A stretch of 64,000 bases of DNA from Aquimarina megaterium XH134 (GTDB lineage Bacteria > Bacteroidota > Bacteroidia > Flavobacteriales > Flavobacteriaceae). Positions 58,193 through 63,254 of the stretch are shown one piece after another. Each line of letters starts with the position of its first letter. The first letter of the stretch is position 1. The stretch spans positions 62,001 to 126,000 of the forward strand of contig NZ_JACB01000003.1 in assembly GCF_000520975.1 (NCBI RefSeq). The letters are read 5' to 3'. The notes beneath the pieces are model-generated. The model made no database searches. It saw only the letters and a list, made by a program, of their open reading frames with translations, and was not told the origin of the DNA. The position numbers and the translations under genes were made by a program.

Positions 58193-60814
58193 TTAGAAAT
58201 TAAAATCTAATCTAGCATAGTAATAAGCTCCACCAAATCCCATTTGAACAGCATCCCAGTATCCACCAGCTTCTGTTTCTCCGTCATTCTGTTGATCAGG
58301 ATACTCATTAAAGATATTGTTTCCTCCAATAGTAAATTTTAGATTTTCTGTTAACTTGTATCCTAGATTTAGATCAGCAGTAATTTTAGCACCATATACA
58401 TCTTCTGTATCTGCAAAATCGATAAGAACAATCTCACTAAAATGTGTCAAGCCAAGTCCTGCATTAAATTTGTTTTTGCTATAATTAGCATTAAAAGCAA
58501 ATTTACTTTCTGGAGCAGAGGCTAATAAGAATGCTTTTTCTCTTTCTCCGAAGAAGGTAGCTTCGTCTAGGCTTCCATTGTTTACATCTTCAATAGTCAT
58601 ATTATTAATATTTCCGGCTAATGTTGCTGATATATTACCAAAATCAAAGTTTCCTTTCCAGGATAGTATTAAATCTAAACCAATAGTTTCTGTATCCACA
58701 CCATTGGCGAAGAATTGTGCTTCTGCTACATTTGGTATTTGAGGAGCCGCAAATGTTCCTGTCAATACAATTCTATCTTTAACATTAATATAGTACCCAT
58801 CTACTGTAGCTGTAAACCCTCCAAAAGTTGCTGTTGCACCTAAGGCTCCATTTAGCGCTGTTTCTTCATCGAGTTGGTCAATTCCAAAAGAAGCTGTTAC
58901 AGGGCTATTATTAGCAGATAATAAGGTTTCGGTTGCAATACCCCCCTGGAAATCAGTGAACCTAAGGTTGTAGTATATCTGAGCTAGGGAAGGAGCTCTA
59001 AAACCGGTACTTACAGATCCACGAATATTAATAGCTTCTGTAGCTTTAATTCTAAAAGCTAATTTACCATTAGTGGTACTTCCAAAATCACTATATTCTT
59101 CAAACCTTCCTGCAACTCCTAATAAAAAACTATCAGAAATATCTAATTCCGCATCTGCATATATAGAAAGGTTAGACCTTGAGCGATCCACCTCGTTTGC
59201 AGGACTATATCCTGGGAACCCTTGTGACCCACCAGGCCTCAATTCTCCAGAAAGAGGATCCGTAGGCTGTGTTTGATTTGCAGGATCTGTAATCGGCAGA
59301 CCATTTACATCATACGTTGCATAAGATCCTTCTTCACCAGCAAAAATTACGAAATTTTCGGTTCTGTATTCTGTACCAAAAGCAATGTTTAATCCTTTAA
59401 GGATGTTTGGATAATATCTAGAAAGGTCAAGACTGGTTGTATTTTGACTTAAACTATGTCCACCAGCATCAAAATCTGTTGGTGAAGAACCTTGTAACGA
59501 TGCATTTAAAGTTCCTTTGATGAAATAGTGAAAATTATTTTTACCCCAGGTATTATTAATATCAATTTTCCAACCGTCTTTGGTTTCGGTTCTAACACCG
59601 GCAGAAACAGAGTTATCGATGATATTTGATGTTATCCTTGGTGTAAAGCCATTCGAATAAATTGATGGTATCACACGCTCTCCGTCGTTACGCGTAAATG
59701 CAAAAGCGTCTGTGTCACGATAATTTCTTCCTCCAAAAGCATATATCTCAGTTTTTTCAGATATTGGGATTGCGGCATTAGCAAAGAAATTAAAACCATC
59801 TATAGCAGCTTCACCAAAACCTCTTCTGAAATCAAAACCAGGACGTAATGTTTTGTGTTTACTAAGATATTCTGTAGTAAAGTTTGCATAGCCTCTTTCT
59901 CCAATCTCTACCCCATAATTGGCAGTTATTTTTACAGATCCTCCATCAAAATTTTTATCATCAGCAATCATGTTTCCATCATTTTCTGTATCCAAACGAT
60001 TTCCATCGGTATTAGGTGTTCCTGCTGGAAAATCTCCTTTGGCATTCGCATTATAAGCGCCATAACTAATACTTCCTGTTAATTTATTAACATTATCTTT
60101 TAGAACAATATTAATAACACCTGCGATAGCATCAGAACCATATTGTGCAGCAGCACCGTCTCTTAAGACTTCAATTCTTTTAATAGCAGATGCAGGAATA
60201 GCATTAAGATCTGTTCCAGAGTTTCCCCTTCCACGGGTTCCAAAAACATTAATTAAAGAAGAAGAATGTCTTCTTTTTCCGTTTATTAAAACCAAAGTTT
60301 GATCTGGTCCAAGACCACGTAATGTTGCCGGGTCGATATGATCAGCTCCATCTGATCCTGATTGCTTATTTGCATTAAAAGAAGGAGCAGTATATTGCAG
60401 AAGTTCATTAATTTCTATTTTACCACTTTTGGTAATAATATCTTGCATATCGATAATATCAATTGCTACAGGAGTATCGGTTGCAGTTCTTTTTGGGCTT
60501 CTGGACCCAACCACAATAATTGTGCTTAGTGATTCTCCTTCGAGGAGGGTGACATCTATTTTTTCTTGTGTTCCTACTTCTATTTCTTGTGTCTCAAAAC
60601 CAATAAAGCTAAATACAAGAATAGCATTTGCGTCTACAGCAATTGAGTAGTTTCCTTGATTATCTGTTGTCGTACCTTTTGCAGATCCTTTTTCTATAAT
60701 ATTTACATAAGGTAACGGAGATCCCGAAGAGTCAGTAACTGTCCCTGTTATTACTTGTTGGCTAAAGCACCAACTAGTGAATAAGCAAAATAAAATGAGT
60801 GTGATTTTTTTCAT
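58193..60814 (-). CDS. TonB-dependent outer-membrane receptor 2
   Basis: An 873-residue receptor, same layout as receptor 1: signal peptide (MKKITLILFCLFTSWCFS), carboxypeptidase-regulatory-like domain (ITGTVTDSSGSPLPYVNIIEKG), plug with L-R-G-L-G-P-D-Q-T-L-V-L-I-N-G-K-R-R-H and V-E-V-L-R-D-G-A-A-A-Q-Y-G-S-D-A-I-A-G-V, barrel, and a final Y-Y-A-R-L-D-F-N-F with the C-terminal phenylalanine expected by the BAM machinery. No SusD partner. The next gene upstream is the small leader-type peptide gene, separated by a hairpin. Substrate unknown. Confidence 0.92.
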   Translation of the reverse strand: MKKITLILFCLFTSWCFSQQVITGTVTDSSGSPLPYVNIIEKGSAKGTTTDNQGNYSIAVDANAILVFSFIGFETQEIEVGTQEKIDVTLLEGESLSTIIVVGSRSPKRTATDTPVAIDIIDMQDIITKSGKIEINELLQYTAPSFNANKQSGSDGADHIDPATLRGLGPDQTLVLINGKRRHSSSLINVFGTRGRGNSGTDLNAIPASAIKRIEVLRDGAAAQYGSDAIAGVINIVLKDNVNKLTGSISYGAYNANAKGDFPAGTPNTDGNRLDTENDGNMIADDKNFDGGSVKITANYGVEIGERGYANFTTEYLSKHKTLRPGFDFRRGFGEAAIDGFNFFANAAIPISEKTEIYAFGGRNYRDTDAFAFTRNDGERVIPSIYSNGFTPRITSNIIDNSVSAGVRTETKDGWKIDINNTWGKNNFHYFIKGTLNASLQGSSPTDFDAGGHSLSQNTTSLDLSRYYPNILKGLNIAFGTEYRTENFVIFAGEEGSYATYDVNGLPITDPANQTQPTDPLSGELRPGGSQGFPGYSPANEVDRSRSNLSIYADAELDISDSFLLGVAGRFEEYSDFGSTTNGKLAFRIKATEAINIRGSVSTGFRAPSLAQIYYNLRFTDFQGGIATETLLSANNSPVTASFGIDQLDEETALNGALGATATFGGFTATVDGYYINVKDRIVLTGTFAAPQIPNVAEAQFFANGVDTETIGLDLILSWKGNFDFGNISATLAGNINNMTIEDVNNGSLDEATFFGEREKAFLLASAPESKFAFNANYSKNKFNAGLGLTHFSEIVLIDFADTEDVYGAKITADLNLGYKLTENLKFTIGGNNIFNEYPDQQNDGETEAGGYWDAVQMGFGGAYYYARLDFNF

Positions 60815-60877: not shown

Positions 60878-60988
60878 AACTCTCACGTGTTTTTTAATTG
60901 AATCCCTAGTTTCATTGGCGATTGCAGTTTAAAAAAAGAAGTATTAAAATTGCTTATAAAACCAAAAAAGATGAACATTATTTATAAA

Positions 60989-61029
60989 TTAAGGGTGTAA
61001 GGATTTACGTCGATATTTTACACCCTTAA
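60989..61029 (-). terminator. Long hairpin after the peptide gene
   Basis: TTAAGGGTGTAA (60989-61000) and TTACACCCTTAA (61018-61029), perfect 12-base arms with a 17-base loop. It lies 29 bases after the peptide stop codon. It lacks a good T run on the minus strand, so it may protect the 3' end of a small mRNA as well as terminate it. Confidence 0.5.
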
Positions 61030-61058
61030 GTTTCGAAATATTTAATTACTTTTACTAC

Positions 61059-61226
61059 TTATGCACATGGAGAATTCCATGGTAGTGCACATAAGGGAGC
61101 ACTCCATTCACCACCACAAGCTAGGCAATCTTGTTCGTTTCTCGGCCATCCAGAACCCTTAATAACCTGAAGTTGTTTTCTGTTAAGTTTCTGGACTCCT
61201 TTAAAATTTAAAATTGTTTGTAACAT
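61059..61226 (-). CDS. Double-glycine-type leader peptide with Cys/Trp-rich core (bacteriocin/RiPP-like precursor)
   Basis: A 55-codon gene. The N-terminal half has the layout of Bacteroidota natural-product leaders: I-L-N-F-K-G-V-Q-K-L-N-R-K-Q-L-Q-V-I-K-G, then S-G (residues 5-26), with a G-S-G in place of the usual G-G cleavage site. The presumed core (27-55) has three tryptophans, four prolines and four cysteines: W27-P, C34-L-A-C37-G-G, W41, C46, W50 and a final P-C54-A. No peptidase-containing ABC exporter or modifying enzyme lies in the window. Terminators or hairpins on both sides make it monocistronic. Its upstream DNA has two palindromes and a FNR-type box. Product class and function are inferred; a small unmodified Cys-rich peptide is an alternative. 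Confidence 0.75.
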   Translation of the reverse strand: MLQTILNFKGVQKLNRKQLQVIKGSGWPRNEQDCLACGGEWSAPLCALPWNSPCA

Positions 61227-61368: not shown

Positions 61369-61400
61369 AAAAAACCGAATCTTATTAGAGATCCGGTTTT
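61368..61400 (-). terminator. Terminator of the secreted-protein gene at 61427
   Basis: AAAACCG (61371-61377) and CGGTTTT (61394-61400), extended by ATC/GAT after one mismatch; a T run follows on the minus strand. It ends exactly where the FNR-type box begins. Confidence 0.75.
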
Positions 61401-61426: not shown

Positions 61427-61951
61427 TTAGTTTTCTTGATATTTATATACAATTTTGGTTACCTCATCTATTTTGGAATCATACATTTCTAGGATGAAAT
61501 TTTTGTTTTCATCAAAATACCCTAGACAGTTATCGTTACCTCCAGAGTTCACAATATAAAGTCCCTTTCTAAGTGGTCTTACTTTAGCTACTTTATCTCC
61601 TGATTTATTTAAAAAAGTCATTATAAAACCTTTTTCATCAGCAACTTTAGTATAACCTACCATATCAGAAGTGGTTTCAAACTTTTGTACTACTACTTCA
61701 TCATCTTCATAAATAGCAGATTGATTAATTTGATCTTCACCGTCAGGGCTAAACTTTATTTTGCCTTTTTTAGTAATAACTTCTTGTTTTTTAATAACTT
61801 TTTCTTCACCATTAGGCCCTTTGATACGAATCGTCTTAGTTACTGTTTCTTGTGAAGAATTTTGTTGGTCTTTTTTTTCGTCAGATTGCGCGTGGTTAAC
61901 AGCGGTAAACATCAAAAATACCACTACGATTAGAGTTTTTAAAGTTTTCAT
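61427..61951 (-). CDS. Secreted protein of unknown function
   Basis: A 174-residue protein with a signal peptide (MKTLKTLIVVVFLMFTAVNHAQ). The first mature 50 residues are hydrophilic and repeat K-x-I-R-I-K-G-P-N-G-E-E-K-V-I-K-K / I-T-K-K-G-K-I-K-F; the rest looks like short beta strands ending in Y-K-Y-Q-E-N. No domain recognised, no cysteines beyond one. Possibly periplasmic. It has a terminator directly after it and is divergent from ychF. Confidence 0.7.
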   Translation of the reverse strand: MKTLKTLIVVVFLMFTAVNHAQSDEKKDQQNSSQETVTKTIRIKGPNGEEKVIKKQEVITKKGKIKFSPDGEDQINQSAIYEDDEVVVQKFETTSDMVGYTKVADEKGFIMTFLNKSGDKVAKVRPLRKGLYIVNSGGNDNCLGYFDENKNFILEMYDSKIDEVTKIVYKYQEN

Positions 61952-62159: not shown

Positions 62160-63254
62160 ATGAAAGCAGGAATCGTAGGGTTACCAAATGTTGGAAAATC
62201 AACATTGTTTAATTGTTTATCTAATGCAAAAGCACAAAGTGCAAATTTTCCATTTTGTACCATAGAACCCAATATTGGGGTGGTGAATGTACCAGACCCC
62301 AGGCTAGAGAAACTAGAGGAATTAGTAGTGCCCGAACGAGTAATCCCCGCAACGGTAGAAATTGTGGATATTGCAGGTTTAGTAAAAGGAGCAAGTAAAG
62401 GAGAAGGATTAGGGAATCAATTTTTAGGCAATATTAGAGAAACAGATGCTATAATACATGTATTACGTTGTTTTGATAATGATAATATTGTTCATGTAGA
62501 TGGCTCGGTAGATCCAATTAGAGATAAGGAAACGATCGATATAGAATTGCAGCTTAAAGATCTGGAAAGTGTAGAGAAAAAACTAGATAAAGTAAAAAGG
62601 GCAGCCAAAACCGGTAATAAAGAAGCACAAAAGGAAGAAGCAATTTTACTAAAACTTAGAGAAGGGCTAGAAGCTGGGATATCGATTAGAGCAATCGACA
62701 TCTCTGAAGATGATCATACCGCGTATGTTAAACCATTACAGTTTATAACAGATAAACCAGTACTTTATGTCTGTAACGTTGATGAAGGGGCTGCGGTCGA
62801 TGGAAATGATTATGTAAAAAAAGTAAAAGAAACTGTAGCATCAGAAAGAGCAGAAGTAATAGTATTAGCCGTAGGTACCGAAGCTGATATCACCGAGTTA
62901 GATGATTATGAAGAGCGCCAATTATTTTTACAGGATATGGGGTTAGAAGAAGCGGGGGCATCAGTATTAATTCGCGCAGCATATAAATTATTAAACCAGC
63001 AAACTTATTTTACTGCTGGCGAGAAAGAAGTAAGAGCATGGACGGTTAATATAGGAGCTACAGCACCACAAGCTGCAGGAGTGATTCATACCGATTTTGA
63101 GAAAGGTTTTATACGAGCAGAAGTTATTAAATACGATGATTTTGTAAAGTATGGTAGCGAATCCAAGGTGAGAGAAGCTGGAAAGCTAGGAGTAGAAGGA
63201 AAGGCATATGTCGTAAATGATGGAGATGTAATGCATTTCTTATTTAATGTATAA
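62160..63254 (+). CDS. ychF: Redox-regulated ATPase/GTPase YchF (Obg family)
   Basis: A 364-residue Obg-family P-loop protein of the usual YchF length. G1 G-L-P-N-V-G-K-S-T-L-F-N (7-18), G3 D-I-A-G-L-V-K-G-A near 69-77, the altered G4 (N-x-D-E) in YVCNVDEGA that shifts preference from GTP to ATP, and the C-terminal TGS domain with L-N-Q-Q-T-Y-F-T-A-G and final D-V-M-H-F-L-F-N-V. YchF binds the ribosome and is linked to oxidative-stress responses. Single gene with a strong promoter and terminator. Confidence 0.97.
   Translation: MKAGIVGLPNVGKSTLFNCLSNAKAQSANFPFCTIEPNIGVVNVPDPRLEKLEELVVPERVIPATVEIVDIAGLVKGASKGEGLGNQFLGNIRETDAIIHVLRCFDNDNIVHVDGSVDPIRDKETIDIELQLKDLESVEKKLDKVKRAAKTGNKEAQKEEAILLKLREGLEAGISIRAIDISEDDHTAYVKPLQFITDKPVLYVCNVDEGAAVDGNDYVKKVKETVASERAEVIVLAVGTEADITELDDYEERQLFLQDMGLEEAGASVLIRAAYKLLNQQTYFTAGEKEVRAWTVNIGATAPQAAGVIHTDFEKGFIRAEVIKYDDFVKYGSESKVREAGKLGVEGKAYVVNDGDVMHFLFNV

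Follow-up and report, generated by a model that had tools for sequence, protein, structure and literature searches.

A small Aquimarina gene for a double-glycine leader peptide with a four-cysteine core is one of 47 leader-sharing precursor genes

An unannotated 55-codon gene in a 64,000-nucleotide stretch of the Aquimarina megaterium XH134 genome (contig NZ_JACB01000003.1, positions 62,001 to 126,000; this whole stretch is called the window) encodes a 55 amino acid (aa) peptide. We assign a probability of roughly 60% to the reading that this peptide is a precursor in which a four-cysteine core follows a double-glycine leader, that the host genome encodes 47 precursors sharing this leader, and that the core is likely to contain two disulfides, likely to be cut off after Gly-Ser and likely to be exported as a bacteriocin-like peptide. 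The gene itself, its conservation, the leader family, the parity of the cysteines, the same-strand linkage of relatives to a membrane protein that fuses a C39-like domain, VKOR and thioredoxin, and the domains and predicted fold of this fusion are directly supported here.

A conserved 55-codon gene

The frame had been proposed at 61059-61226 in a preliminary description that named no strand. It is present exactly there, on the minus strand, and encodes MLQTILNFKGVQKLNRKQLQVIKGSGWPRNEQDCLACGGEWSAPLCALPWNSPCA, composed of the leader MLQTILNFKGVQKLNRKQLQVIKGS and the core GWPRNEQDCLACGGEWSAPLCALPWNSPCA. The cysteines C34, C37, C46 and C54 are found in the translation as had been described. Relatives were searched in 91 genomes, 52 of Aquimarina and 39 others from the same order. 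At E<=0.01, 31 of the 91 genomes contain a relative, namely 31/52 Aquimarina and 0/39 other members of the order. In 14 of the 52 Aquimarina genomes, host included, identity is at least 50% over near-full length. Orthologs of the closest species are 91-100% identical, and named Aquimarina records encode peptides with 95-98% identity. At E<=0.001, 45 relatives were returned by a protein search, and Aquimarina, Kordia, Tenacibaculum, Dokdonia and Flavobacterium are among those that are named; wherever a name is given, they are filed as hypothetical or uncharacterized protein. The alignment of 12 of 15 ortholog-type sequences (near-identical ones were omitted) has P28, C34, C37, G38, G39, L45, C46, S52 and C54 invariant.

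Among ten orthologs, 27, 21 and 44 of 55 columns vary at codon positions 1, 2 and 3, respectively, and the ortholog pair L001 and L023 yields a dN of 0.039 and a dS of 0.88. Judged from these comparisons, the peptide gene is under purifying selection. Two ways in which the prediction could have failed had been named beforehand, missing conservation of leader and frame in relatives and substitutions indifferent to codon position; leader and frame are conserved and the bias is present. A chance open reading frame would fit the length of only 55 codons and the lack of a Pfam match, and searches of Pfam, NCBIfam and PHROGs yielded nothing convincing for the peptide. This explanation is refuted by conservation and hardly worth retaining, because orthologs, synteny, codon-position bias and the 47-member family all argue for a real gene. 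Another argument of the preliminary description, that the GC-richer codons for Trp, Cys, Gly and Pro indicate selection, is circular, since these codons are GC-rich by the genetic code. A contig of a metagenome-assembled genome labelled Acidobacteria (L053:2185-2250) matches core residues 26-47 alone (55%), possibly due to mis-binning or to a core without Aquimarina-type leader.

One leader and 47 variable cores

C39 recognition involves hydrophobic residues at -12, -7 and -4 and Gly-Gly/Ala/Ser at -2/-1, as described in PMC6363468. By this pattern, the leader belongs to the double-glycine class, as had been suggested: L14 (-12), L19 (-7), I22 (-4), G24 (-2) and S25 (-1) fit, the exception being Gln instead of Glu at -8. 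The cut is predicted after G24-S25. A leader profile was composed of 46 rows that include the window leader itself. These rows have Leu at -12 in 43, Ile or Val at -4 in 45, Gly or Ala at -2 in all 46 and Gly, Ser, Ala or Thr at -1 in 45 cases.

With the window peptide as query, 13 other places in the host genome were found at E<=10, and their frames have the leader in common and mostly different cores. The leader profile at E<=0.01 yields 46 matches in the host genome and 907 across 43 of the 52 Aquimarina genomes. From the host DNA, 47 distinct leader-sharing precursors were read. The preliminary description recognized a single gene correctly and missed both its membership in this family and the relatives beside the VKOR fusion. 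None of the 47 leaders contains a cysteine. By contrast, the cores consist of 14.7% cysteine, compared to 0.66% in long frames of five host-genome loci. Leaders have a mean pairwise identity of 0.475, cores one of 0.218, and cores versus shuffled cores one of 0.200.

The cysteine count is even in 46/47 host-genome cores. Over all fetched loci with 149 distinct precursors, 138 cores are even, 11 odd and none is cysteine-free; clustering at 60% identity leaves 86 core clusters, 79 of them with an even count (binomial p 1.5e-16). As pairing predicts parity and thioether chemistry does not, this sequence feature points to disulfides between the core cysteines. The order C-C-CC-C-C, which we take to be that of knottins, occurs in 10 of the 86 core clusters. 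Pfam and NCBIfam scans covered 24 of the 47 host-genome precursors. In NCBIfam at E<=0.5, eight of them match leader_Chryseo (best E 0.018) and two NF047792 'CCPGW family putative bacteriocin' (best E 3.4e-5), whereas the window peptide does not match NF047792. In Pfam, the 24 have weak scattered matches only, the best one being Conotoxin for one member (E 4.7e-4). At one end of host contig C62 (L114:9360-10934), five leader-sharing precursors with two core types are located. Two of the five genes encode an identical protein, which suggests recent duplication.

A membrane fusion of C39-like domain, VKOR and thioredoxin, and C39 exporters

The window lacks a C39 domain, in agreement with the earlier statement that no exporter is located there. 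The genome-wide check for C39 exporters that had been proposed shows that they are present elsewhere: C39 domains occur at four places in the host genome. L109 encodes a stand-alone C39 ABC exporter of 734 aa with an HlyD partner. L111 and L112 encode C39 exporters near peptides with other leaders, L112 in addition a lantibiotic dehydratase pair. Cys15, His88 and Asp109, presumably the C39 catalytic triad, are conserved in all three exporters. The fourth place, L110, encodes the membrane protein that fuses a C39-like domain, VKOR and thioredoxin.

The VKOR part of the fusion scores 64.8 bits in Pfam (cut-off 27.5). The four VKOR redox cysteines are conserved in 73/73 aligned fusions, and so is the thioredoxin CxxC; the alignment comprises 73 of the 74 VKOR places found in Aquimarina (see below), with one 360-aa frame omitted. 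No alignment column before residue 197 has at least 90% Cys, and in a comparison of the C39-like domain with the exporters (hhalign) the His and Asp positions are unmatched. The N-terminal C39-like domain is thus predicted to be peptidase-dead with its fold kept. Thioredoxin and C39 folds made up the matches in a fold comparison of the predicted fusion. For the VKOR part, there is a weak alignment (E 0.04) with the solved chain 4nv6, which we take to be the VKOR-thioredoxin enzyme from Synechococcus. The fusion has one extra predicted membrane helix, and therefore C39-like domain and thioredoxin should lie on the same membrane side. By positive-inside counts, the active site would face the cytoplasm in 73/73 fusions (Lys plus Arg 15.0 versus 1.2). 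However, segments on side A are considerably longer, and Lys/Arg also occur in the homologous loops of a canonical solved VKOR-like chain, so that this orientation is no more than a prediction.

On host contig C69 (L111:695-4267), the C39 exporter gene is preceded by a gene for a 61-aa double-glycine peptide with another leader type. The region on contig C6 (L112:2274-15637) comprises the lantibiotic dehydratase pair, the C39 exporter and an HlyD-like gene; a diverged VKOR fusion is located about 4 kb off and adjoins a 51-aa Gly-Gly frame (MKNQVISQYTLLSSKEITTINGG...).

Linkage of fusion and peptide genes

A VKOR search of the 52 Aquimarina genomes yielded 74 places in 44 genomes, and the DNA of all 74 was examined. 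A leader-profile frame on the same strand is found within 2.5 kb 3' of the fusion at 38 loci and 5' of it at 8, whereas the opposite strand has none on either side (0/74). Of 246 genomes drawn from the order, 37 have a match to the fusion profile at E<=1e-40; they belong to 4 of 82 genera, host and Aquimarina included. Outside the host, DNA was available for 29 of 51 matches. A looser pattern (Gly-Gly plus at least three Cys) replaced the leader profile there and detected a small cysteine-rich Gly-Gly frame on the same strand 3' of the fusion at 11 loci and 5' at 3, and on the opposite strand at none. The leaders of these frames differ from the window type. Altogether, similar cysteine-rich peptides beside the fusion are found in three genera besides Aquimarina. 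In one other genus (L268:1-4554, L269:1-4533), the fusion is followed by CNCNSQYC-type six-cysteine peptides that end in CC and have leaders unlike those of Aquimarina.

Genes for a LytTR response regulator and a histidine kinase are located beside fusion and peptide genes on host contig C39 (L110:10460-13040). Relatives of this pair occur at 3 of the 74 VKOR loci (L110, L115 and L127). By its position beside the fusion, the pair may be involved in regulation or signalling.

Co-occurrence in Aquimarina

The fusion is encoded in all 43 leader-positive genomes and absent from 8 of the 9 leader-negative ones. The 734-aa exporter at >=83% identity is found in 41/43 leader-positive and 0/9 leader-negative genomes, and the two leader-positive genomes without it are 78% and 55% complete. 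Among genomes that are at least 90% complete, it is present in 40/40 leader-positive and 0/6 leader-negative ones. Fisher tests of presence and absence yield p values from 4e-6 to 1e-8.

Proposed maturation pathway

The following route is proposed. The shared leader would dock on the membrane VKOR-thioredoxin fusion at its C39-like domain, which is predicted to be catalytically dead. The fusion would then oxidize the core cysteines and pass the electrons to quinone. Afterwards, the same leader would dock on the 734-aa C39 ABC exporter with its HlyD partner, which would remove the leader and secrete the folded core. The leader could thus act as a passport that is checked at two stations, first at the oxidase with its dead C39-like domain, which would bring the core to thioredoxin and VKOR, and then at the exporter with its live C39 domain. 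With a shared leader and central machinery, lone precursor genes could therefore sit anywhere in the genome. The likeliest use, by analogy to bacteroidetocins, would be competition with related bacteria, i.e. the killing of rivals.

A wider picture can be drawn tentatively, and we consider it rather less probable than the precursor reading: a flavobacterial combinatorial factory for disulfide peptides, in which hypervariable cores behind a shared leader would be folded by a cytoplasm-facing C39-dead/VKOR/thioredoxin oxidase before C39 cleavage and export. This would be a bacterial counterpart of cone-snail venom with leader-guided cytoplasmic disulfides.

Several observations weigh against the proposed reading. 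At the level of the leader, position -7 is Gln in 39 of the 46 rows instead of the classical Leu that the window peptide has, and the window peptide reaches 12.2 bits with NCBIfam NF047798 leader_Chryseo 'bacteriocin-like protein', below the cut-off of 23.5. At the level of linkage, 36 of the 74 VKOR loci lack a profile-positive peptide 3' of the fusion, and 15 of the 29 loci in other genera show no peptide even by the looser pattern. Some of the 36 loci hold cysteine-rich Gly-Gly frames below profile detection. An exporter-like ABC frame is present in the fetched stretch of 18 of these 36 loci, compared to 1 of the 38 with a 3' leader peptide; the query was the whole ABC protein, so that other ABC transporters could pass. 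Furthermore, Aquimarina genome G002 encodes a VKOR fusion and has no leader at E<=0.01 genome-wide. In this single-contig genome, however, a local scan placed one weakly matching leader frame (E 0.005) directly 3' of the fusion (L153), so that the profile probably misses diverged leaders.

The co-occurrence is open to objections, too. The 83% cut-off for the exporter was set post hoc, when the hits were already known. At E<=1e-100, 46 of the 52 genomes have an exporter-like match, among them the leader-negative G002, G004, G006 and G035; lower-identity exporters in leader-negative genomes include those of G002 (73%) and G006 (74%). When 50 of the 52 genomes are arranged in a YchF tree, the leader-negatives form essentially one clade, with two changes for the leader and one each for VKOR and exporter. 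With one or two evolutionary events, a phylogeny-aware test is powerless and the co-occurrence is not an independent proof. Finally, neither an exporter nor an oxidase or immunity gene was recognized beside the window gene, so it is the shared leader that ties this orphan to the machinery.

Alternative functions and chemistries

The main alternative for the use of the peptide is signalling. A secreted signal or self-regulatory peptide, with leader, disulfides and export unchanged, is a minority option that we nevertheless take seriously. The ortholog is 91-100% identical among the closest species, unlike typical arms-race toxins, and no immunity gene adjoining the peptide gene was recognized. 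LytTR regulators paired with histidine kinases are used in peptide signalling, and such a pair is encoded at one VKOR-peptide locus of the host. However, its relatives are confined to the three loci mentioned above, and 47 cores that barely exceed shuffled similarity fit a weapon or binding repertoire better. Moreover, bacteroidetocin regions likewise have no obvious immunity genes (PMC6671954).

Modification by enzymes of ribosomally synthesized and post-translationally modified peptides, i.e. lanthipeptide-type thioethers or ATP-grasp ester or amide links in place of disulfides, is improbable. It would agree with the lantibiotic dehydratase pair and C39 exporter on host contig 6. By contrast, even parity (79 of 86 clusters, none cysteine-free) would be unexpected for Cys-Ser/Thr thioethers and cysteine richness for ATP-grasp links; in addition, linkage connects the leader family with the VKOR fusion. 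LanB and LanC are not among the three window neighbours submitted to Pfam; the LanB pair is located on another contig. A cysteine-rich metal-binding or structural peptide with a leader for export is slightly less probable still. The core CxxC followed by GG is a putative metal ligand, whereas core diversity, even cysteine counts and linkage to a thiol-oxidizing fusion favour disulfides. Furthermore, the Pfam-scanned neighbours are a TonB-dependent receptor, a protein without match and YchF. The disulfide-bonded bacteriocin-like precursor is therefore preferred.

Relation to known systems

Related leaders and cores are already annotated as 'bacteriocin-like' or 'putative bacteriocin'. The closest characterized counterparts are bacteroidetocins, proposed class IIf bacteriocins of Bacteroidetes. 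Without an obvious immunity gene, their regions encode a double-glycine four-Cys peptide, a C39 transporter, and a thiol oxidoreductase plus a five-transmembrane protein whose deletion attenuates activity (PMC6671954). Double-glycine leader, small four-Cys mature peptide, C39 ABC exporter, thiol oxidoreductase and lack of an obvious immunity gene are shared with the system described here. In contrast, the leader has 25 aa here and 15-16 aa there, the gene is a scattered orphan here and part of a compact four-gene region there, and one C39-like/VKOR/thioredoxin fusion corresponds to separate oxidoreductase and transmembrane genes. A bacteroidetocin-type region (peptide, C39 ABC transporter, transmembrane protein and usually a thiol oxidoreductase) is not present at the window locus; analogous functions are encoded elsewhere in the host genome.

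Prochlorosins resemble the family in a conserved leader, many divergent cores and one central enzyme, in their case a promiscuous lanthipeptide synthetase. They differ in that ProcM forms thioethers, whereas disulfides and an oxidase with C39-like domain are predicted here (PMC10783134). The NCBIfam families leader_Chryseo (NF047798) and CCPGW (NF047792) likewise have short leaders that end in Leu-(x)7-[IV]-x-Gly-Gly, but the window peptide stays below the cut-off of the first and does not match the second. With VKOR-thioredoxin enzymes such as 4nv6, the fusion shares the four VKOR cysteines and the thioredoxin CxxC; beyond these, it has a C39 fold that is putatively peptidase-dead, and an additional membrane helix is predicted. 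Conotoxins and knottins are similar by analogy only, with a conserved pre-region and a hypervariable core on a cysteine framework; the window core has a four-Cys C-C-C-C framework, and common ancestry is not claimed. In the titles and abstract openings of open-access literature, no link of the fusion to such peptides was found among the matches listed. The main text of a VKOR phylogeny paper (PMC4555120) does not contain the words 'C39' or 'Bacteroidetes'.

If the proposed reading is true, about 47 disulfide-rich peptides for secretion are encoded in a single Gram-negative genome, and one or more genes of this kind occur in 43 of the 52 Aquimarina genomes. Leader profile and VKOR fusion together provide a handle to search for such repertoires. 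The bacterial production of disulfide-rich peptides could profit from a leader-docking oxidase as a tool. The reading also raises the question whether a VKOR enzyme forms disulfides on the cytoplasmic side in Bacteroidota.

Locus and neighbouring genes

The coordinates of gene, peptide parts, neighbours and hairpins are compiled in Table 1. The gene order is TonB-dependent receptor, peptide gene, 174-aa gene and then YchF. Of 15 inspected loci, 10 keep this order, two keep the 174-aa gene and YchF alone and three keep neither. An ortholog lies within 1.5 kb of YchF at 12 of 50 YchF loci, with seven changes on the tree; on this comparison, the exact locus is not genus-wide.

Table 1. Features at the window locus (window positions)
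Feature	Position	Strand	Basis or remark
55-aa precursor peptide gene	61059..61226	-	ATG at 61226, stop 61059-61061; orthologs, signs of purifying selection
Double-glycine leader, residues 1-25 (MLQTILNFKGVQKLNRKQLQVIKGS)	61152..61226	-	leader profile E 1.7e-11 (profile includes this leader)
30-aa core GWPRNEQDCLACGGEWSAPLCALPWNSPCA, four Cys (C34, C37, C46, C54)	61062..61151	-	
TonB-dependent receptor, neighbour	58193..60814	-	Pfam; linkage lost in L028 and L030
174-aa protein, neighbour conserved beside peptide gene	61427..61951	-	no Pfam match
YchF-type GTPase, neighbour, syntenic anchor	62160..63254	+	Pfam
Hairpin 3' of peptide gene, 12-bp stem, terminator-like, weak U tract	60985..61030	-	-14.2 kcal/mol, z -4.2
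Terminator-like hairpin closing upstream 174-aa gene	61371..61400	-	scan: 1 found, shuffles mean 0.2

A link to the neighbouring TonB-dependent receptor was dismissed after consideration, because in L028 and L030 the YchF side is retained while a different gene occupies the receptor side. The receptor is probably unrelated to the peptide, the first of the options that the preliminary description had offered. The latter had also postulated a separate transcription unit with downstream hairpin, upstream terminator and own control sites. The hairpin and the upstream terminator-like site are present, whereas neither a sigma-70 scan nor a Bacteroidota promoter pattern revealed a promoter on the minus strand, so that own control sites are not supported. 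The terminator scan did not list the hairpin 3' of the peptide gene among its sites. By eye, a similar hairpin is located 3' of the ortholog in L023. At the diverged VKOR loci L150 and L177, the leaders of the adjoining precursors are longer (MKKLNLKKLELTDQEM...GG and RSFNKLRFNEIEMLERDQLKNVLGG) and may represent a second class.
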